A stretch of 64,000 nucleotides of DNA, taken from NCBI RefSeq assembly GCF_002307355.1, contig NZ_CP017481.1, forward strand, positions 3,410,001-3,474,000. Reading direction: 5' to 3'. The position numbers were made by a program, and so were the translations under genes. Positions 1-8,408 of the stretch are shown here, piece by piece. The notes beneath the pieces are model-generated. The model ran no database searches. It had not been told where the DNA came from and saw only the letters and a list, made by a program, of their open reading frames with translations. Source of the stretch: Pectobacterium polaris (GTDB lineage: Bacteria; Pseudomonadota; Gammaproteobacteria; Enterobacterales; Enterobacteriaceae). Numbering within the stretch: the first letter of the stretch is position 1; every line of letters begins with the position of its first letter.

Positions 1-877
1 ACAGCGCCTGAATGTCGTTGAGACGGGAAACGGCAATCGTAGACAGCTTCTCTTTAGAGATGTCTCGATCGAGTGAGATGCAATCCTTCCACAGAGAACG
101 TCCGGCAATCACGCCAGAGGCACCATTTTTCAACGCGCTTTCTACTTGAGGGAGAAACGTCGCGTGATCGACGCCAGCGGATAGGACGGCCCAGGGAATG
201 TTACCGCAGAGTGCGGTCACGCGTGCACAGGCCTCATCAGATCCAGGGTAAGGAATTTTTAAGACCTTTGCGCCTTGGTCGATACAAGCCTGACAGCCTG
301 CTGGAATGAGTTCGGGCAGGAGGCGGGTATAGTCTTCACGAGATTCATTTTCCAGCGGATAGGTCAGGAATTCGACGACGAGCAGTAAATCTTCCTGCGC
401 AAAATCCTGAATCACGGTACGAAGTGTGGCAAGGTTACGGGTATTGGCGGCTGGTCTATCTGGGCGAAGGTAGATCATGATTTTTCCGCCAGTGGCACCC
501 CATTCGCGCACTTTACGTGCCGTTACGCCTTCAACCATCGTGGAGATCCGGTAGCCTTCTGGCGTTGTTTCCCACCCTGATGCGTCAAGCCCGATGAGCA
601 GGCCCGTATCGCGGGGCAGAATGTCTTCGTCTATCAGACCGGGTATGGCGCAGATCGGATCAACCAGCACACAGCCAGCCTTTGCCGCCAGATAGCGAGT
701 GATGTCATATTTTGTTTTTCCTAATGTTTCATTGGTAATCGCGGCCTGTGCTTCTGATGTCGGTGCCAATACTGTTCGCATACCGCCACGTTGATCGCAG
801 GCAATAACCATCATAGCGCCTGTCGCGTTACAAATTAATTGATATCCTCGGTGTTCAGCAGTTGTCATGGTGTTCAT
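1..877 (-). CDS. Class I aldolase, LacD/YihT-like (3' end beyond window)
   Basis: This gene is cut by the left window edge, with about 292 residues visible. The product resembles the class I aldolases LacD (tagatose 1,6-bisphosphate) and YihT (6-deoxy-6-sulfofructose-1-phosphate). Shared segments are an early VIACDQRGGMR, a KVLKIPYPG stretch that should hold the Schiff-base lysine, and a late WAVLSAGVD followed by GASGVIAGRSLW. The start at 877 has GAGGG just upstream; a second ATG lies at 868. It is the last visible gene of the PTS operon, 36 bases after the P-loop kinase. The context suggests it cleaves a ketose bisphosphate made by the PTS and the PFK-like enzyme. The exact substrate is an open inference. 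Confidence 0.8.
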   Translation of the reverse strand, partial: MNTMTTAEHRGYQLICNATGAMMVIACDQRGGMRTVLAPTSEAQAAITNETLGKTKYDITRYLAAKAGCVLVDPICAIPGLIDEDILPRDTGLLIGLDASGWETTPEGYRISTMVEGVTARKVREWGATGGKIMIYLRPDRPAANTRNLATLRTVIQDFAQEDLLLVVEFLTYPLENESREDYTRLLPELIPAGCQACIDQGAKVLKIPYPGSDEACARVTALCGNIPWAVLSAGVDHATFLPQVESALKNGASGVIAGRSLWKDCISLDRDISKEKLSTIAVSRLNDIQAL

Positions 878-913
878 AATAATTACCCTCATAAAAGTAA
901 TATAAATAAGCGA

Positions 914-1447
914 TTAATCCAGGTGTGTTTTGATCCATTGAATTAATTCCTGATGATTAATTTCCTTATCCTGATCAACCGTGTAACACTTTCCAATACG
1001 CATCGGTTGGGCCTGATGCGCGAGTGACATTAATTCTGGGAGATATTCATCGCCGGGATGGCCTTTTATTCTTTCATTAACTCTGGCTTGATATCGCTCT
1101 GCTACCCGATCAGATGAGATGGCATTCCATATTTCAAGCGTATGGTGGATATCACATGAAGCCAGATAATCTTGCAATACGGCTTTCTCGCGAAATCCGA
1201 ACCAAGCATCAAGAATCAGGATGCTATTTTCAGGAGCCTGTCTAACAATATTAAACATGGCCTGATAGGCGGCGTATCCCAGCTTTCTGTTTAACGTTCT
1301 ATTAATCACATCGCAAAACTGCATCATGAACGGCTCTTTTATTTCATCAAGACTTAACCGATAGAGACTCAATTCGTCCGCAATGATACGTGCTACCGTG
1401 CTTTTCCCTGATGCGGGAATACCATTGACTAAAATAAGCTTTTTCAT
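914..1447 (-). CDS. Small P-loop kinase in PTS operon
   Basis: This 177-residue protein has a Walker A motif GIPASGKS at residues 9-16 near the N-terminus, as in small-molecule kinases of the zeta-toxin/gluconate kinase-like P-loop group. An ILDAWFGFRE segment may serve as the Walker B region. Its start overlaps the stop of the PTS IIA gene by four bases (ATGA), which suggests translational coupling. It probably phosphorylates a metabolite of the imported sugar, but no substrate can be read from the sequence. I do not recognise a named orthologue. Confidence 0.7.
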   Translation of the reverse strand: MKKLILVNGIPASGKSTVARIIADELSLYRLSLDEIKEPFMMQFCDVINRTLNRKLGYAAYQAMFNIVRQAPENSILILDAWFGFREKAVLQDYLASCDIHHTLEIWNAISSDRVAERYQARVNERIKGHPGDEYLPELMSLAHQAQPMRIGKCYTVDQDKEINHQELIQWIKTHLD

Positions 1448-1881
1448 AATACTCCGACAATATCATCTGACGTAGTGGCGCTTCGAATACGAGAGAGCAT
1501 ATCGTCCTTTTCCAATAGATTGATGATTGAGGCGATACCCTCTGTAATATGCGCATCGCTGTTAACGCCGCCGAACATAATTAAAATATCCACCGGTTCA
1601 CTTCCCTGAATCGAGAGCGGAGTCTGTAGCGTCAGTAAACTGAAACAATTCTCCTTAACCCCGCATTCAGGGCGCGCATGGGGAATAGCGATGCCTTCAT
1701 CAAAAACATAATAAGGCCCGTATTCCTTCGTACTTTCTATCACCGCGATGGGATAGTTCTTCGTAATACATCCTGCACGGATTAACGGTTGTGCGGCGCA
1801 ATAAATAGCCTCTTCCCATGTCTTACATATCACGCCCAGTTGAATGCAATCGTGCTGCAAAAGGAAATTTTTTATGCTCAT
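1444..1881 (-). CDS. PTS EIIA component, mannitol/fructose/ascorbate type
   Basis: This 145-residue cytoplasmic protein has the fold of PTS EIIA type 2 (PtsN/UlaC-like). The IAIPHARPE motif contains the histidine, about residue 68, that accepts phosphate from HPr. It should pass phosphate to the IIB protein encoded two genes upstream. GAGGA sits four bases before the ATG. It lies between the 92-residue coiled-coil gene and the P-loop kinase. As a separate polypeptide it matches the IIA/IIB/IIC arrangement of the ascorbate (Ula) family. Confidence 0.85.
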   Translation of the reverse strand: MSIKNFLLQHDCIQLGVICKTWEEAIYCAAQPLIRAGCITKNYPIAVIESTKEYGPYYVFDEGIAIPHARPECGVKENCFSLLTLQTPLSIQGSEPVDILIMFGGVNSDAHITEGIASIINLLEKDDMLSRIRSATTSDDIVGVL

Positions 1882-1887
1882 AAATCC

Positions 1888-2166
1888 TCATATATTTTTC
1901 CGAATGGTGTTTCTGAGTTCATCTATCTGAATAAAAATATCATCAACGCGATCCCGATAGTCAGGATGAGAAGAAAATACCTGAATGGCCTGATTGTATT
2001 TAATCATTAGCGCTTTTTGCGTTTCACTATGTGCCGGATCTTGAACTAAACGAGACTCAAGCTCCGCTAATTCTTCCTCAATTTCCCTGACGCGATTGTC
2101 ATCCTTATTATCGCGAGGGCCGGAAGAGGGACCCGGGGATAAAAAGCGTTTGAGTAGAGAAAACAT
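1888..2166 (-). CDS. Small charged coiled-coil protein in PTS operon, unknown function
   Basis: This 92-residue soluble protein has a short hydrophobic N-terminus (MFSLLKRFL), then a Ser/Pro/Gly-rich linker. A heptad-like charged helix (EIEEELAELESRL, residues about 29-41) follows, then a second amphipathic region. The start has GGAG five bases upstream. It sits between the IIC and IIA genes with short spacing, so it is almost certainly co-transcribed and may scaffold or regulate the transporter. No known domain was recognised and no function is claimed. Confidence 0.6.
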   Translation of the reverse strand: MFSLLKRFLSPGPSSGPRDNKDDNRVREIEEELAELESRLVQDPAHSETQKALMIKYNQAIQVFSSHPDYRDRVDDIFIQIDELRNTIRKNI

Positions 2167-2210
2167 AGTGACTCCTTAAGCTATTTGCATAATGACGACA
2201 GGCCAATACG

Positions 2211-3548
2211 CTATTGCGATAGTTTACGATTCGCAATAAAGGCAATGAATGCAACGAATGCGACAAAGGCGGCGACAAATAACCAGTCTTGCTGGAAAGC
2301 GTGTCCTAATATCAGGCCAGTACTGATGACATCAGAATCACTGAAGGTGACGCCGGTAAATCCGAAATCTTCCAGTAATGGCACCAGAATGGCGGGCAAG
2401 AGCGTAATGAAAAGGCCATGCACGACACCGCCGATGACTGCGCCGCGCCGTCCTCCCAGCGCGTTACCGAAAATACCGGCTGTGCCGCCCGCGAAGAAGT
2501 TGGTCAATAAACCTGGCAAAATCATCGCCAGCCCAAACATCGGGAAGATCAACATTCCGAGAATAGAACCGGCGGTGGTGGCGAGGAACCCGACAATGAC
2601 GGCGTTAGGCGCATAGGGGAAGAGAACCGGGCAATCCAACGCGGGTTTGGCATTAGGGACCAGCCGCATGGCGATCCCTCGAAATGCGGGAACCAGCTCA
2701 TTAAGCAGCAGACGGACACCGCTGTAGAGAACGAAAACGCCTGCGACAAACTGCATGGACTGCATGAAGGAATACATCAGATAGTTGACGCCGTTGGCGT
2801 ACTGCGCGATGTAGGCTGGCCCCGCTGCTACGGCTGGGATGAGGTACATCGGCACCATGACGACGGCCATCGACAGGTAGGTATCCTGCAAAAATTTGAA
2901 GTTATCGGGCAGCGTTAAATCTTCTGTGGATTTGGAGTTTTTGCCGACTAACCGCGCAACGGCGGCCTGCACCAGATACCCGATGGTACAAAAATGCCCC
3001 AGAGCTACATCATCGGAATTCGTGATTTTACGGACAATCGGCTGTGCTAGCGCGGGCATCAGCACGGCCATAATGCCGCCAAATATGCCGCCGGTTAGGA
3101 TCAGCGTTGCGCCGGTCAAACCTGCCTTATAGCCAATTACGGTACCGATTGTTGCCATCCACAGCAGAGCCTGTCCCGTCAGGAAGATATATTTAAAGGG
3201 GGTAATGCGCGCAATAAGGATGTTGACGGCAAAGATCACCATGAGCGTTAACGCGACTTCTGACCCAAGTTCGCGGTTTGCCAACCCGGCGATGGCGGCG
3301 ACATCGGTGATGTAGCCTTTCATGCCAAAGCCTTGAGTGAAGATACTGTTCAAATAAGTCAGGGTATCAACGATGATGTTAATCCCTGCCATCATGATGA
3401 GGAAACCCAGCAGCGTCTTGAACGTCCCCTCTGCGGTTTTTCCTACCGATTTTTTCTGCAAAATCAACCCGATCATGGCGATCAGTGCGATTAATATGGA
3501 TGCCTGGCCTAATAAATCTTTCACAATGAAATTGATAACGGTGTTCAT
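2211..3548 (-). CDS. PTS EIIC component, UlaA/SgaT (ascorbate) family
   Basis: This 445-residue inner-membrane protein has about ten to eleven hydrophobic segments. It resembles UlaA, the ascorbate PTS permease: an early GTFKTLLGFLIMMAG, a central SVEDL-like STEDLTLPDNFKFLQD, and ALDCPVLFPYAPNAVIVGF near residue 310. It should translocate and phosphorylate its sugar together with the IIB encoded just upstream. The family is clear, but the substrate need not be ascorbate, because the neighbours are a PFK-like kinase and an aldolase rather than ula pathway enzymes. Confidence 0.85.
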   Translation of the reverse strand: MNTVINFIVKDLLGQASILIALIAMIGLILQKKSVGKTAEGTFKTLLGFLIMMAGINIIVDTLTYLNSIFTQGFGMKGYITDVAAIAGLANRELGSEVALTLMVIFAVNILIARITPFKYIFLTGQALLWMATIGTVIGYKAGLTGATLILTGGIFGGIMAVLMPALAQPIVRKITNSDDVALGHFCTIGYLVQAAVARLVGKNSKSTEDLTLPDNFKFLQDTYLSMAVVMVPMYLIPAVAAGPAYIAQYANGVNYLMYSFMQSMQFVAGVFVLYSGVRLLLNELVPAFRGIAMRLVPNAKPALDCPVLFPYAPNAVIVGFLATTAGSILGMLIFPMFGLAMILPGLLTNFFAGGTAGIFGNALGGRRGAVIGGVVHGLFITLLPAILVPLLEDFGFTGVTFSDSDVISTGLILGHAFQQDWLFVAAFVAFVAFIAFIANRKLSQ

Positions 3549-3561
3549 ATTTCACCTCATG

Positions 3562-3855
3562 CTATTGATGAGCCTGGATATACGTTAAAATTTTTTCTTC
3601 TATTTCATCTTTATCAGTCAGTTTATTAAGAATGATGACTCTTTTTTTCTCATCTTCACTGGCATCGCTGTTCAGAATGTCAGCAAATATTTTCTGGGTT
3701 AGGATGACGTCATAATTGAAGGCAGAGGCCTCTGAAATCGTGGTGTGATTTATTTCTGCATCAATACCTAATTTTTTTAGTACGGACTTGGCTGTCATTT
3801 CGATAGCGAAACTGGAACCTAATCCACAACCGCAAACGCAAAGTACTTTCAACAT
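3562..3855 (-). CDS. PTS EIIB component, UlaB/lactose-IIB-like
   Basis: This protein of about 97 residues begins MLKVLCVCGCGLGSS, the phosphocysteine loop of PTS EIIB (compare AVCGNGQGSS of UlaB). Cys8 is the expected phosphorylated residue. An in-frame ATG lies six bases earlier, at 3861. The start at 3855 is preferred because GAGG then lies eight bases upstream instead of two. The gene lies 10 bases after the PFK-like gene and 13 bases before the IIC gene. Confidence 0.85.
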   Translation of the reverse strand: MLKVLCVCGCGLGSSFAIEMTAKSVLKKLGIDAEINHTTISEASAFNYDVILTQKIFADILNSDASEDEKKRVIILNKLTDKDEIEEKILTYIQAHQ

Positions 3856-3865
3856 AATCATGGCC

Positions 3866-4846
3866 TCATATAAGGTGATGGGCTTTCGCGAGCTTATAAA
3901 AATGACTTTCTACATCAACCAAACGTCGTTCTGAATCCTCCAGGTCGATAGGAATAGCCTTGTTGTTATTATTGATAATGATGATTTTATTGGTCAGTCC
4001 GGAATTAATACACCGAACGACTTCTTCTGCTAACAGGGTGCCCTGAATAATTTCTTCCCCGGTGGGCGCGCCATTTCGTAAACCATATCCCAAAATGGTT
4101 TTTCGGATACGGATGCCAATCTTGTGCTCTAGTTTCTTGATAATGGTATCGATAGCGCCCTGAAAGCCAGGAGTATATTCATGGGTATAGCCTTCAGAGC
4201 ATAAAATAATCACGCTGTTTTGTTCTGCGATTTTCTCCCGAATACATTGTGATAATTTATCAATCTCCCACGGTGATTCTGGAATGAGTGCGATGTCTGC
4301 GTTGCTCTTTAATGCTGCCTGCAAGGTTAATTCGCCACAATATCCACCGAGTAATTCGATCATGAATACCCGGCCTTGTAACCCCCGGCCTGTATTTCGC
4401 AATTTTTCTACTTCACTCATTACCTGCTCGCAGGCGGTAGAAAAACCGATCGTATAGCTATTCCCTGAAATATCATTATCAATCGTCATGCCTACGCCAT
4501 AGCAATGAACGCCATAGTGACTGAGTTTTTTTAAAAACTGGAATGAGCCATCTCCGCCAGCCATAATGAGCGCGTCGAGTTTTTGTTTTTGAATGTTTTT
4601 GACGATTTGCTCATAGTCTGTTTTTCTGCATTTCCCAGTTTTTCTCCCTGACGTAATCAGGGGCATTGCTGAGATGGAGTAATCCACCAAATCGCGGCGA
4701 GTGAGGACTTTACAGCAGTTATCGATCAGGCCATTAATTCCGCCATCGAAAATGACGATATCAGAGGCAGTCATTCTATTCACCTGAAAGATGAAATTAT
4801 TTATTCCGCTAACGTCGCCGCCGCTAATGACTAATCCAATTTTCAT
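3866..4846 (-). CDS. Divergent ATP-dependent phosphofructokinase-family sugar kinase
   Basis: This 326-residue protein of the PfkA family is the first gene of the PTS operon. Clear landmarks are SGGDVSG (residues 8-14), the nucleotide motif GGDGS (97-101), and TIDNDISG, where Asp123 matches the catalytic Asp127 of E. coli PfkA. Arg159, Arg248 and Arg257 match PfkA Arg162, Arg243 and Arg252. Other fructose-6-phosphate contacts differ: Met169 to Leu166, Arg171 to Gly168 and His249 to Tyr254. It is therefore probably a sugar-phosphate kinase with altered specificity. The start at 4846 has AGAGGG upstream; the open frame extends to 4930 without a better start. Confidence 0.8.
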   Translation of the reverse strand: MKIGLVISGGDVSGINNFIFQVNRMTASDIVIFDGGINGLIDNCCKVLTRRDLVDYSISAMPLITSGRKTGKCRKTDYEQIVKNIQKQKLDALIMAGGDGSFQFLKKLSHYGVHCYGVGMTIDNDISGNSYTIGFSTACEQVMSEVEKLRNTGRGLQGRVFMIELLGGYCGELTLQAALKSNADIALIPESPWEIDKLSQCIREKIAEQNSVIILCSEGYTHEYTPGFQGAIDTIIKKLEHKIGIRIRKTILGYGLRNGAPTGEEIIQGTLLAEEVVRCINSGLTNKIIIINNNNKAIPIDLEDSERRLVDVESHFYKLAKAHHLI

Positions 4847-4987
4847 CGTCGCCCTCTGGAAATATGAATAACCATCGTGTGAACACAATGTTATTAAACT
4901 GATAAGGCGTTTTTTTGATGAATGTCGCAATTTTGTATTTAACTACGAGGTCGTGTGTCTTGACAGTGATGTTGTTGGTTCTATTGC

Positions 4988-5003
4988 TGTGATGATTATC
5001 ACG
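4988..5003. promoter_or_regulatory. Putative CRP site, PTS operon side
   Basis: TGTGA-N6-TCACG is nearly the full CRP consensus TGTGA-N6-TCACA. Its centre is about 150 bases from the PFK-like gene start. It lies about 60-65 bases upstream of a plausible -10 and start site, the usual class I distance. It would place the sugar operon under catabolite control. Confidence 0.55.
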
Positions 5004-5109
5004 ATTTAAAAATAAGCAATATAACTAACTTATTAATTAAATTGATATTTAACATTTTCACCTTTTTTATCTTTATTACTCTTTTCAGCTAAAAACTGAA
5101 TACATATTT

Positions 5110-5125
5110 TGTGAATGATTTCACA
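5110..5125. promoter_or_regulatory. Putative CRP site upstream of dadA
   Basis: TGTGAATGATTTCACA is a perfect TGTGA-N6-TCACA palindrome, 205 bases before the dadA start. E. coli dadA is known to be CRP-dependent and Lrp-regulated, so this site fits that gene. It could also influence the divergent PTS operon. Confidence 0.65.
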
Positions 5126-5330
5126 GTTATTTCGTTACGATCTCAGTGGAGAATCTTCGGATCGAAGAGATAACAATAGATAAATGTTATCGTCGAGACG
5201 GGTGACAATTCCTTCCCAACTGCTAGAGTAGTCTTCAGTTTTACCTTTTAACTAGTGTTTTATTCCATTCAATAAGCATTTTTCCAGCAGATTAGACGGT
5301 CTTTGGCGGAGCGAAAGGGAGAGCGGTAGC

Positions 5331-6584
5331 ATGCGGGTTGTGATTCTGGGAAGTGGTGTAGTTGGCGTAAGTACCGCCTGGTATCTTGCGCAGGCAGGGC
5401 ATGATGTTACCGTTATAGACAGACAACCGGAGCCCGCGTTGGAAACCAGCGCCGGGAATGCCGGACAGATTTCCCCCGGCTATGCCGCACCTTGGGCTGC
5501 ACCGGGAATACCGCTGAAAGCGATAAAGTGGATGTTTCAGCGTCATGCACCGCTGGCCATCCGGCCGGATTTCACGGCCGCACAGCTGTGCTGGATGTGG
5601 CAAATGTTGCTCAACTGTGACGCGCGCCACTATAAAACCAATAAAGCGCGGATGGTGCGTCTGGCGGAATACAGCCGCGATTGTTTGCAAGCGCTGCGGC
5701 GAGATACTGGTATCCAGTACGAAGGTCGGCAAGGTGGAACGCTGCAACTGTTCCGCACTGAGCAGCAGTATGAAAACGCGACACGTGATATCGCCGTGCT
5801 GGAAGAGGCTGGCGTACCGTATCAATTGTTGACTCGCCATGAGCTGGCCACGGTTGAACCTGCGTTGGCGCACGTAGCGGGAAAACTGACCGGCGGGCTG
5901 CGTTTACCGCATGATGAGACGGGCGACTGCCAGCTGTTCACTCGCCAACTGGCGGCGATGGCTGCCGATGCCGGTGTTATCTTTAAACTGGGGCGTAACG
6001 TTCGCCAGCTGCGAGTGGAAGGGCAAAGCGTTACGGGCGTGCAGTGTGACGATGAAATGATTGTGGCAGATGCCTATGTGATGGCCTGCGGCTCCTATTC
6101 CACCGGATTACTGCATCAGTGGTTCGATATTCCGGTTTATCCGCTGAAAGGCTATTCACTGACGATTCCGCTGGCGGATGACGCTTTTGCACCGGTTTCT
6201 ACCGTATTGGATGAAACCTATAAAATAGCGATTACTCGCTTTGATCGTCGCATTCGCGTCGGAGGAATGGCCGAGGTCGTGGGTTTCAACACCGAGCTGA
6301 ATCCCAAGCGCCGTGAAACGCTGGAAATGGTGGTGCGCGATCTGTATCCCCATTGTGGCCCGATTGAGCAAGCAACATTCTGGACGGGATTGCGTCCGAT
6401 GACGCCAGACGGCACGCCGCTGGTAGGGCGCTCACCGCTGAAAAATCTGTACCTGAATACGGGGCATGGCACGTTGGGCTGGACGATGGCTTGTGGATCG
6501 GGGAAATTGCTGGCGGATATTCTGTCGAACAAATCACCGGAGATTGAGTCCGATGATTTGTCCGTGGAAAGATATGCTCGTTAG
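5331..6584 (+). CDS. dadA: D-amino acid dehydrogenase, small subunit DadA
   Basis: This 417-residue FAD-dependent enzyme oxidises D-amino acids, mainly D-alanine, to 2-oxo acids and ammonia and passes electrons to the respiratory chain. It starts with the dinucleotide-binding fold [19 protein letters not shown], and a second family segment, [14 protein letters not shown], lies near the C-terminus. AGGGAGAG precedes the ATG. In E. coli it forms an operon with the alanine racemase dadX. Here no dadX follows, because the next gene is convergent. Confidence 0.95.
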
Positions 6585-6608
6585 GTGAGCTGTATTCGAT
6601 ACTTTGAA

Positions 6609-7808
6609 CTAGGTGCGGGGCAGTGACGTAATGCTGCTCTTGTGGTGCCGCGTCAGCAGGCGGGCGCGTACCGCTAGCAGAGCGGCACAGAGCATCACCA
6701 GCGCCAGTGATACTTTTGACGGCAGAGGAATAGCCATAGCCATCAAGCCCAGCGCTGCGCCGCCCGCCATCTGCACAAATCCTACCATCGCTGACGCAAT
6801 CCCCGCCTCATTGGAATAAGGCTCCAGCGCATAGCTGGTGGACGGCCCGATCAAAAATGCCAGACCGGCACAGGCCAGCGCGACGGGCAGCATGTAGGTC
6901 GGCCAGGTGTCTTGCATCGCGTCGGGTAAGAGAACGACGCCGCTCAGCAGCGAAACAAACCCAGCACCCATCAGCAGGCTACCGATAGCCAGACAGCGGG
7001 GTCGGCCGACTTTGCGAATGATGCGATTTGCAAAGAAGCTGACCAGCATGATCCAAAAACCGTTTACGCCAAAGGCAATCGAAAACTCAAGCGGCGTGAG
7101 CTGAGCCTCGTTCATCAATACCACGGGAGAGAAGGTGACATAGGTCAATGCCATCCCCATGGCTCCCGCGTTGACTGAGGAGAATCCCAAAAATTGGCGA
7201 TCGGACAACAGACGTGCGTATTGGCGCAGCGGCAAGCCGTGTACGGGCAACGTTGAATCCGGGCGCGTTTCGGGCAGGAAGCGGATGACGAGTGCCAGTA
7301 CCAGAATGCTGTAGCCTGCGAGGAACCAGAAGGGGGCTCGCCAGCCGAAGGCTTCGGCCAAAAGCCCACCTAATAGCGGCGCCAGCGCTGGCACAATGTT
7401 CAGCGTGCCGTTAAGAAAACCATAGGTTCTGGCGGCATCGTCGCCGTTCAGTTTGTCACGCACGCTGCTGAAAATGGCGACGGCGGTACAACAGACGGCC
7501 AGTCCCTGAAAAAGGCGTGAGAGGATGAACAGCGTGGCGCTGGTAGCCAGCGCGGCCATGATCGCACCGATGAGGTAGATAATCACGCCAGCCAGCGCCA
7601 TAGGGCGTCGACCGTACTTATCGACCAGTGGCCCCGCCAGCAGCTGGCCTAATCCCATGATCAGAATGAAAAGTGCGACGGTGGATTGAATCAGCGATTC
7701 AGGGCTGTTCAGCGCCACGGCGATGGCGGGAATAAGCGGTAAATAGATGTCGATGCCCAGAGGGCCGAGTAGAACCAGAGTCAGTAAAATCAGAACAAAT
7801 CGTTGCAT
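6609..7808 (-). CDS. Bcr/CflA-family MFS drug efflux transporter
   Basis: This 399-residue inner-membrane protein has about twelve hydrophobic segments. The MFS signature GPLVDKYGRRPMALAG lies after the second helix. The GIDIYLPLIPAIA segment at the N-terminus is typical of the Bcr/CflA drug-proton antiporters (Bcr, CmlA, PunC/YdhC). It probably exports small hydrophobic compounds or antibiotics. It is convergent with dadA and stands alone. The specific substrate is unknown. Confidence 0.8.
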   Translation of the reverse strand: MQRFVLILLTLVLLGPLGIDIYLPLIPAIAVALNSPESLIQSTVALFILIMGLGQLLAGPLVDKYGRRPMALAGVIIYLIGAIMAALATSATLFILSRLFQGLAVCCTAVAIFSSVRDKLNGDDAARTYGFLNGTLNIVPALAPLLGGLLAEAFGWRAPFWFLAGYSILVLALVIRFLPETRPDSTLPVHGLPLRQYARLLSDRQFLGFSSVNAGAMGMALTYVTFSPVVLMNEAQLTPLEFSIAFGVNGFWIMLVSFFANRIIRKVGRPRCLAIGSLLMGAGFVSLLSGVVLLPDAMQDTWPTYMLPVALACAGLAFLIGPSTSYALEPYSNEAGIASAMVGFVQMAGGAALGLMAMAIPLPSKVSLALVMLCAALLAVRARLLTRHHKSSITSLPRT

Positions 7809-7949
7809 AACAAAAGCAGAAATCTATGTTTTATGGGTTCGACAGGGTAATGCGCACACAGGCGGAAAGAAAGCGTTATCTTTGTGACAATGTCACTATG
7901 ATGCGAAGGGAACTGGCGTGGCGAGGTTGCATGAAGACGCTAATCAACA

Positions 7950-7973
7950 GGGCGGAGCAGAGATTTTCCGCCC
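7950..7973. terminator. Inverted repeat downstream of the hemerythrin gene
   Basis: GGGCGGA and TCCGCCC form a seven-base stem around a ten-base loop, 25 bases beyond the hemerythrin gene stop. No strong T-run follows on the minus strand, so its role as a terminator is uncertain. Confidence 0.35.
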
Positions 7974-7997
7974 TTTAGTCAAACGTGCTTAATCCAC

Positions 7998-8408
7998 TCA
8001 GGCCGTTTCAATGCGGGGATAAAAATCATGATTCTCCCGTTGCATGCGTTCATAGACCTTACGCAACACGTTATTGGCATCCGCCCGGAAATCCCTGTCG
8101 TGACCCATCAGCTGTGAAGCTGTATTCCAGCGACGGGAAAACGCATCGTAATCGGCGGCAATGGTTTGCATTTCATTCTGATAATGCTGACTCATCTTCG
8201 TTAACTGCTCGTCACCGCTACGCTGAAGTGAAGGGTAAAGCACGCGATCTTCTGCGGAAAGGTGCAGCTTGATGGTTGAGCTCATGGCGACGATGGCGCG
8301 GGCGATGTCAGTGGCGTTCTCTGTCACACCGGCCCGGGATAGCTGACGCAGGGTATCAATACTTTCGAGTATTTCGTTGTGCTGGTGTTTGAATTTATCA
8401 ATGTTCAT
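7998..8408 (-). CDS. Hemerythrin HHE-domain protein
   Basis: This 136-residue helical protein carries hemerythrin-like metal-ligand motifs: HQHNEIL near residue 8, HLSAEDRVLYP in the middle, HYQNEM, and ENHDFYP close to the C-terminus. Such proteins bind a di-iron centre and are linked to oxygen, nitric oxide or iron-sulfur stress responses. The start at 8408 (MNIDKFKHQH) is preferred over an upstream in-frame start because AGAGAA lies just before it. It is a single-gene unit. The precise role is not determined. Confidence 0.8.
   Translation of the reverse strand: MNIDKFKHQHNEILESIDTLRQLSRAGVTENATDIARAIVAMSSTIKLHLSAEDRVLYPSLQRSGDEQLTKMSQHYQNEMQTIAADYDAFSRRWNTASQLMGHDRDFRADANNVLRKVYERMQRENHDFYPRIETA

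Follow-up and report, generated by a model that had tools for sequence, protein, structure and literature searches.

Among described bacterial sugar pathways, the closest to the operon analyzed here is the one proposed for mannoheptulose in the Rhodobacteriaceae by Leyn et al. (2017), whose bin08 locus comprises an ATP-binding cassette (ABC) transporter, a COG3684 aldolase, a ROK kinase, and a COG0529 kinase; in the passages on this locus, mannoheptulose is proposed to be converted to its 7-phosphate by the ROK kinase, to the 1,7-bisphosphate by the COG0529 kinase, and then to dihydroxyacetone phosphate (DHAP) and erythrose 4-phosphate (PMC5507952). The bin08 binding protein is 83% similar to Avi_5339, which is quoted there as mannoheptulose-binding from an unpublished observation of Almo and Gerlt (PMC5507952). 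In the tagatose 6-phosphate pathway (LacC/LacD, GatY/KbaY), a sugar phosphate is likewise converted to a bisphosphate and then to triose phosphates. Here, we investigated a seven-gene operon at positions 1-4846 of a 64,000-nucleotide stretch of a Pectobacterium chromosome (hereafter the window; G000:C1:3410001-3474000 of a single-contig, 4.83-Mb genome), which probably encodes a catabolic route for an exogenous ketose of the D-manno-heptulose/D-tagatose type, composed of a phosphotransferase system (PTS), an ATP-dependent kinase, and an aldol cleavage. Gene content, gene order, families, residues, phylogeny, and CRP-like sites were all computed.

The initial annotation had placed a seven-gene, minus-strand operon here, which our family searches bear out. 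All seven open reading frames (ORFs) lie on the minus strand and are tightly spaced, from a 4-bp overlap (KIN with IIA) up to 44 bp. Starting from the first gene, they are as follows:

3866..4846, minus strand: PFK, a PfkA-family sugar-phosphate kinase of 326 amino acids (aa), first gene (PF00365, 208 bits)
3562..3861, minus strand: PTS IIB, 99 aa (PF02302)
2211..3548, minus strand: PTS IIC of the ascorbate/EIIC-GAT family, 445 aa (PF03611, 409 bits; NCBIfam PRK12997.1-3)
1888..2166, minus strand: helical protein of 92 aa, without a family match (three-helix model)
1444..1881, minus strand: PTS IIA, 145 aa (PF00359, EIIA-2)
914..1447, minus strand: KIN, a small P-loop kinase, 177 aa (PF13671, AAA_33; 33 versus 27 bits)
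1..877 (full ORF L003:11978-12877), minus strand: ALD, a class I aldolase of the DeoC/LacD type, 299 aa (PF01791)

The ALD ORF runs 23 bases past the left edge of the window, to L003:11978; it is complete in L003, and its start codon was checked.

A link to known pathways comes from the pairing of KIN with ALD outside the enterobacteria. A phylum-wide and family-wide aldolase search returned 15 distinct alphaproteobacterial loci, of which 13 were read (G1029 and G991 were left out). In all 13, KIN lies within 1 kb of a class I aldolase on the same strand (the aldolase position in L150 being taken from the aldolase search). KIN is fused to a ROK sugar kinase as its C-terminal domain in 10 of these loci, and ROK and KIN are separate neighbors in 2 others; in L153, the search found no ROK kinase and the stretch read holds no binding protein. 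No PFK hit was obtained in the alphaproteobacterial loci read. Twelve of the 13 carry a ribose-type substrate-binding protein (SBP) of one family in a sugar ABC transporter context, and the binding proteins of L108 and L146 match PDB 5dkv at 537 and 529 bits, respectively, a structure that we take to be Avi_5339 with bound D-tagatose. Moreover, all 25 aldolase records in a plasmid collection, many of them from near-identical strains, have KIN within 1 kb, and the 26th plasmid record with KIN is a Klebsiella pneumoniae locus with the PTS genes of type B (defined below). KIN and the aldolase thus form a stable core, for which either a PTS or a ROK kinase provides the first phosphorylation. In L155 (9726-11948), an SDR gene comes after the ROK and KIN genes, together with one that by eye resembles a mannitol dehydrogenase, an arrangement suggestive of polyol oxidation to the ketose in this locus.

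This core resembles the proposal of Leyn et al., in which the same aldolase family stands beside a small P-loop kinase and a ketose bisphosphate is the last intermediate; from the gene content, we read their COG0529 kinase as KIN. Their pathway lists two kinases, which are fused in 10 of our 13 alphaproteobacterial loci, and it relies on an ABC transporter with an Avi_5339-type binding protein and a ROK kinase where the window has a PTS. The passages on this pathway name no PTS, PFK, 92-aa protein, or class II variant. An earlier statement that no standard pathway is known with this combination of genes must therefore be narrowed: the pathway predicted in 2017 is similar, but the relevant passages describe ABC and ROK components and not PTS and PFK (PMC5507952).

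To define the operon family, genome contigs were scanned with a PFK alignment, and the best 80 of 99 relatives were taken as loci, so that PFK is present in them by construction. One of the 80 is interrupted by a contig end; in all 79 complete loci, the gene order is identical, aldolase aside, a recurrence that is far beyond chance and that settles in the affirmative whether the order is conserved in other genomes. Type A (20 loci) has the order PFK-IIB-IIC-92aa-IIA-KIN-class I aldolase, and type B (59 loci, in Klebsiella, Pantoea, Serratia, and others) has the order PFK-IIB-IIC-class II aldolase-92aa-IIA-KIN. In both examples scanned, the type B aldolase exceeds the cut-off of the cbbA ketose-bisphosphate aldolase subfamily (262 and 269 versus 216 bits), and the family scan places it near GatY/KbaY and the fructose-bisphosphate aldolases. 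Three genomes from other families of the order (L124-L126) also contain type B, L124 without a hit for the 92-aa protein. Type C, represented by two loci (L109 and L127) with no PFK hit, has the order class I aldolase-KIN-IIA-IIB-IIC-small protein and is divergent from a regulator that we call SorC-like; its IIC also lies above the PRK12997.1-3 cut-off (731 bits).

The exchange of class I (20 loci) and class II (59 loci) aldolases is as expected if a bisphosphate is cleaved. In our judgment, it is highly likely that the sugar enters through the PTS and is phosphorylated in the process, then becomes a bisphosphate, and is finally split by aldol cleavage. The initial annotation had put forward this chemistry, which is now reinforced by (i) the class II aldolase standing in at 59 loci and (ii) the KIN/ALD pairing in the alphaproteobacteria, while the substrate is something that we infer, as are the phosphate positions, the division of labor between the two kinases, and the role of the 92-aa protein.

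Phylogenetic analyses on unrooted trees, which covered the window together with 16 of the 21 type A loci, 28 of the 59 type B loci, and L124-L126, point to the origin of the class I enzyme. In the aldolase tree, type A forms a clade (support 100/99) inside the alphaproteobacterial rows, as sister to L146 (99/97), and a split of alphaproteobacterial from enterobacterial (A and C) rows is rejected by the approximately unbiased (AU) test (p-AU 0.0013; two AU tests of this tree address one split on an unrooted tree and are counted once). In the KIN tree, types A and B group together (Shimodaira-Hasegawa-like approximate likelihood ratio test, 99, from a quick search), and a grouping of A with L146 is rejected (p-AU 0.020), a value that is optimistic because the L146 pairing was spotted in the tree before the test. 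Since ALD of type A nests among rhizobial aldolases whereas its KIN groups with that of type B, the aldolase appears to have been swapped in from the rhizobial pathway, which in turn suggests that the bisphosphate of one pathway is identical to, or closely resembles, that of the other. Further, a HAD phosphatase gene related to 6-phosphogluconate/hexitol phosphatases follows ALD in 10 of the 20 complete type A loci (L028, L029, L030, L032, L033, L035, L036, L037, L039, and L040) and is missing from the Pectobacterium, Samsonia, and Izhakiella loci. This phosphatase is 42% identical to one encoded two genes from the Agrobacterium rubi aldolase, and a relative adjoins the ROK-KIN gene of L147; such neighbors of rhizobial aldolase and ROK-KIN genes fit a co-transfer. 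The simplest account would start from a type B-like operon whose class II aldolase was lost and replaced by a class I aldolase, acquired along with a phosphatase from a rhizobial-type cassette, the direction of the swap being the one that we favor on unrooted trees. The apparent exchange, in an otherwise fixed operon, offers a natural experiment on which step is interchangeable.

As to the substrate, D-manno-heptulose and D-tagatose have the same configuration at C3-C5, so that one aldolase could serve both. A lyxo-configured ketose of the mannoheptulose or tagatose kind is the substrate that the evidence favors, by a modest degree; mannoheptulose or another heptulose in particular is a tentative assignment, somewhat less likely than not. 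If the same chemistry acted on a hexulose, above all on D-tagatose, the 6-phosphate would be converted to the 1,6-bisphosphate and then to DHAP and glyceraldehyde 3-phosphate; we rate this alternative as possible, though somewhat doubtful. It draws on the best NCBIfam hits of ALD, which are tagatose-bisphosphate aldolases, as well as on the proximity of the type B aldolase to GatY/KbaY and the fructose-bisphosphate aldolases and on the D-tagatose presumed to be bound in PDB 5dkv. ALD belongs to the DeoC/LacD superfamily (PF01791, 53.5 versus a gathering cut-off of 23.8 bits), as the tagatose pathway would have it, and the type B aldolase to the GatY/KbaY/FbaA superfamily. However, ALD reaches just 47.6 bits against the LacD (TIGR01232) cut-off of 432 bits, ALD and the type B aldolase both fall below the tagatose equivalog cut-offs, and the window differs from the tagatose pathway in that its second kinase is not of the PfkB type and its PTS is of the ascorbate type. 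The sole published assignment that we found for the SBP family, in the passages of Leyn et al. cited above, is mannoheptulose. Among the matches listed in the open-access literature, we found no paper on the substrate of the operon.

The solved relatives of ALD bear on another reading, in which the operon is a sulfosugar route and ALD resembles the sulfofructose 1-phosphate (SFP) aldolase YihT. While YihT and SFP aldolase are among its best solved relatives (62 bits), LacD-type chains come close to them (57 bits) and a DUF2090 protein outscores both (71 bits); moreover, the operon contains no sulfo-sugar isomerase or exporter, and a PTS would probably phosphorylate the very carbon that bears the sulfonate. 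On the basis of these scores and the missing enzymes, the sulfosugar reading was dropped as exceedingly improbable.

Several points weigh against the proposed route for a mannoheptulose/tagatose-type ketose. None of the NCBIfam models matched by ALD gave a score above its cut-off, and the exact sugar is therefore not readable from the sequence. The mannoheptulose assignment goes back, in the one paper that quotes it, to an unpublished observation and concerns the ABC version and not the PTS version. Within the plasmid collection, the best nonenterobacterial match is a plasmid of Agrobacterium rubi, on which a different ABC transporter (CUT1-like) is found close to the aldolase, and substrates may therefore vary; a pyridoxine 5'-phosphate synthase gene (L156:6715-7464) and a YvcK-family gene are also found near the aldolase and ROK-KIN genes of this plasmid. 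Finally, KIN and PFK occur together in all 79 complete type A and type B loci, although one ATP-dependent kinase suffices after a PTS. This joint retention is the main puzzle of the operon; our guesses are that there are two ketoses with one kinase each, or that one kinase is freed of feedback.

Both kinases look intact at the residue level. In KIN, the Walker A motif GxPASGKS is invariant in 19 aligned rows, and the fold and the Walker A match those of adenylate-kinase-like P-loop kinases (model predicted local distance difference test [pLDDT], 92.5). Its comparison protein 2rhm (putative kinase Caur_3907; 26% identity) has no assigned function, and members of the family bear generic names only (AAA family ATPase, putative kinase, chloramphenicol phosphotransferase-like protein); the operon brings a function for this family within reach. 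PFK belongs to the PfkA family (208 versus a gathering cut-off of 30.9 bits for PF00365) and is below the housekeeping 6-phosphofructokinase equivalog TIGR02482 (168 versus 371 bits). It is 31% identical to the host's own housekeeping PfkA, with which it shares the catalytic residues (TIDND), the ATP-type GGDGS motif, and the phosphate-binding arginines R162, R243, and R252; residue numbering and roles are those assumed for PfkA, with the letters checked against the host's PfkA. It differs from PfkA by the changes H249Y, R171G, M169L, Y41I, F73K, and R77C and by a 9-residue insert after E222. At the effector site, 6 of the 10 positions checked differ (R21, S58, K211, K213, and H215 are replaced, and E187 is an aspartate), whereas R25, R54, D59, and R154 are retained. 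One PFK relative, P0071, is a PFK-IIB fusion of 421 aa.

An intact PFK could by itself provide all the sugar-phosphate kinase activity in types A and B, with KIN acting elsewhere, for example on an unphosphorylated aldehyde product or on the PTS itself. The position of KIN directly after IIA in all 79 complete loci agrees with such a role, as does its faster evolution relative to PFK and ALD, with ratios of nonsynonymous to synonymous substitution rates (dN/dS) of 0.074-0.104 for KIN versus 0.025-0.040 for PFK and 0.052-0.066 for ALD. However, the type C loci and the alphaproteobacterial loci read combine KIN and an aldolase with no PFK hit, so the C1 phosphate there must come from KIN or from the first kinase, and the invariant residues of KIN are common to rows of types A, B, and C. 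We therefore regard a PFK-only scheme as unlikely. ROK kinases elsewhere phosphorylate the terminal carbon, and, if they do so in the ROK-KIN loci, these loci together with type C point to KIN as the C1 kinase.

In the ketose route that we favor, the ascorbate-family PTS would import the ketose and phosphorylate it for the first time, probably on the terminal carbon; an ATP-dependent kinase would phosphorylate C1 to yield the ketose bisphosphate; and the class I aldolase would cleave the latter to DHAP and an aldose phosphate, namely erythrose 4-phosphate from a heptulose or glyceraldehyde 3-phosphate from a hexulose. The ancestral C1 kinase of the pathway is probably KIN, and PFK may be a later addition in types A and B, where it would either share this step with KIN or act on another ketose. 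In its heptulose form, this would be the first PTS for a seven-carbon ketose, leading from heptulose 7-phosphate via the 1,7-bisphosphate to DHAP and erythrose 4-phosphate with two unrelated aldolases, one of them rhizobial, a combination that we hold to be speculative. The further proposition that, in such a heptulose PTS, KIN represents a P-loop family unlike the known sugar-bisphosphate-forming kinases, in a system widespread in Klebsiella, Pantoea, Serratia, and the soft-rot bacteria, is, taken jointly, equally doubtful. To our knowledge, bacterial use of heptuloses, which are sugars made by plants, has been little studied, and the operon provides a small, testable enzyme set for them; in its two versions it is common to many plant- and gut-associated bacteria, where the sugar pieces would feed central metabolism.

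The PTS components raise the question of whether the operon is an L-ascorbate system. The closest solved relative of IIC is UlaA of the UlaABC L-ascorbate PTS (148 bits), with matching IIA and IIB; IIC and IIA are nearest to ascorbate PTS families, and IIC exceeds the cut-off of the ascorbate-named model PRK09410.1-1 (482 versus 380 bits). However, IIC scores far better on a different model, PRK12997.1-3, which describes an ascorbate-like sugar PTS (822 versus a cut-off of 657 bits), and both IIA (104 versus 187 bits) and IIB (25.4 versus 138 bits) fail the ascorbate equivalogs. Consistent with the initial annotation, which had found the ascorbate pathway enzymes absent, no ascorbate 6-phosphate lactonase, decarboxylase, epimerase, or other downstream enzyme is present in the operon, and visual inspection of the 12 kb to its left revealed none either (the search did not extend to the rest of the genome). 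We also know of no need in ascorbate catabolism for a PFK and an aldolase of such a kind. Given the family cut-offs and the missing enzymes, the ascorbate reading was dropped as very improbable. The host genome has a second ascorbate-like PTS (IIA, IIB, and IIC; L004:5230-8111, G000:C1:315229-318110), which is followed by a fructose-6-phosphate aldolase/transaldolase-like gene and preceded by a LacI-type regulator (all named by eye, except IIC); by its sequence, this locus looks like another PTS-aldolase operon.

The 92-aa protein matched no family in the Pfam/NCBIfam-type profile scans. It had been described as a coiled-coil protein of 92 residues; its length and helical nature stand, but the predicted structure is a flexible N-terminus followed by a three-helix bundle and not a plain coiled coil (pLDDT 83, with residues 1-18 below 50), for which fold comparison, the three-helix MIT domain included, gave no decisive match. 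Among the loci read, the family was seen solely beside the PTS (no genome-wide search was made). The small protein of type C (∼100 residues) aligns with it in hhalign at 72%, with 18% identity over 55 columns, and gave neither a BLASTP nor a phmmer match; it may or may not be a relative.

Upstream of PFK, three CRP-like sites were found in the window:

5110..5125, minus strand: CRP-like site TGTGAAATCATTCACA, 279 bp upstream of the PFK start (all 10 core positions match)
4988..5003, minus strand: CRP-like site CGTGATAATCATCACA, 157 bp upstream of the PFK start (9 of the 10 core positions match)
4914..4929, minus strand: third, weak CRP-like site TGCGACATTCATCAAA (in the window, 8 of the 10 core positions match)

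The position of the third site has 9 of 10 matches in L029, L030, L031, L034, and L037. At least one site with 9 or 10 of the 10 core matches lies within 400 bp of the PFK start in 76 of the 80 loci, versus 1.1 expected from mononucleotide shuffles, which preserve base content alone; within this range, no site of 9 or more matches was found in L042, L047, L048, and L055. The sites lie mostly near -146 to -159, and at -278 to -295 in all 21 type A loci. The operon is thus probably CRP-activated, and control by cyclic AMP-CRP is the best-supported part of its predicted regulation. Neighboring genes up to 3.5 kb from the 80 operons were clustered by family, and among the 28 clusters shared by the largest numbers of loci, no regulator or isomerase recurred at a constant place; only the HAD phosphatase of type A holds a fixed position, directly behind the operon, in several genera. 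LysR-type regulators occur near 14 loci of both types at varying distance, strand, and side, and a DeoR-type gene lies 385 bp upstream in the Serratia locus L041, so that an unlinked regulator, or a genus-specific one in single genera, is possible. The type C loci and 10 of the 13 alphaproteobacterial loci have the SorC-like regulator, whose best NCBIfam hits (DeoR and LsrR) are below cut-off and for which the host genome holds just a 26% match.

The operon is flanked by a gene that we name ycgB (spoVR; L003:10194-11753) on one side and by dadA (window 5331-6584) on the other, all on the minus strand, and no isomerase, dehydrogenase, or regulator lies within the operon or between it and these two genes. 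Beyond ycgB is a GntR-type gene, presumably fadR-like. The suggestion that an isomerase might lie to the left of the window was followed up by eye over 12 kb, and none was seen (a family search was not run there).

Named Pectobacterium records contain PFK and ALD at 93-98% identity to those of the host, and three within-Pectobacterium comparisons show purifying selection on each of the seven genes (dN/dS, 0.012 to 0.198; in a fourth, with L034, synonymous sites had reached saturation in five of the seven). Constraint is weakest on the 92-aa gene (0.135-0.198), and genes other than this one and KIN have values of at most 0.087. Occurrence is patchy, which fits an optional carbon source: a PFK of the operon family (E at most 1e-60) is found in 28 of the 198 sampled genomes of the host's family, and KIN (E at most 1e-25) in 14 of the 394 genomes of the order. 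Among these 14 genomes, PFK was seen in 11 and was missing beside KIN in 2 (G035 and G024), with G828 left out. In Escherichia coli, none of 20,395 records covers 80% of window positions 1-8000, and only dadA is matched among the best 20 of 4601 rows, in a search for near matches (distant copies were not searched). Genera with the operon include medically and agriculturally common ones. In Sodalis praecaptivus, the entire type A operon and the HAD gene lie on a 450-kb plasmid (L157:4012-9675).

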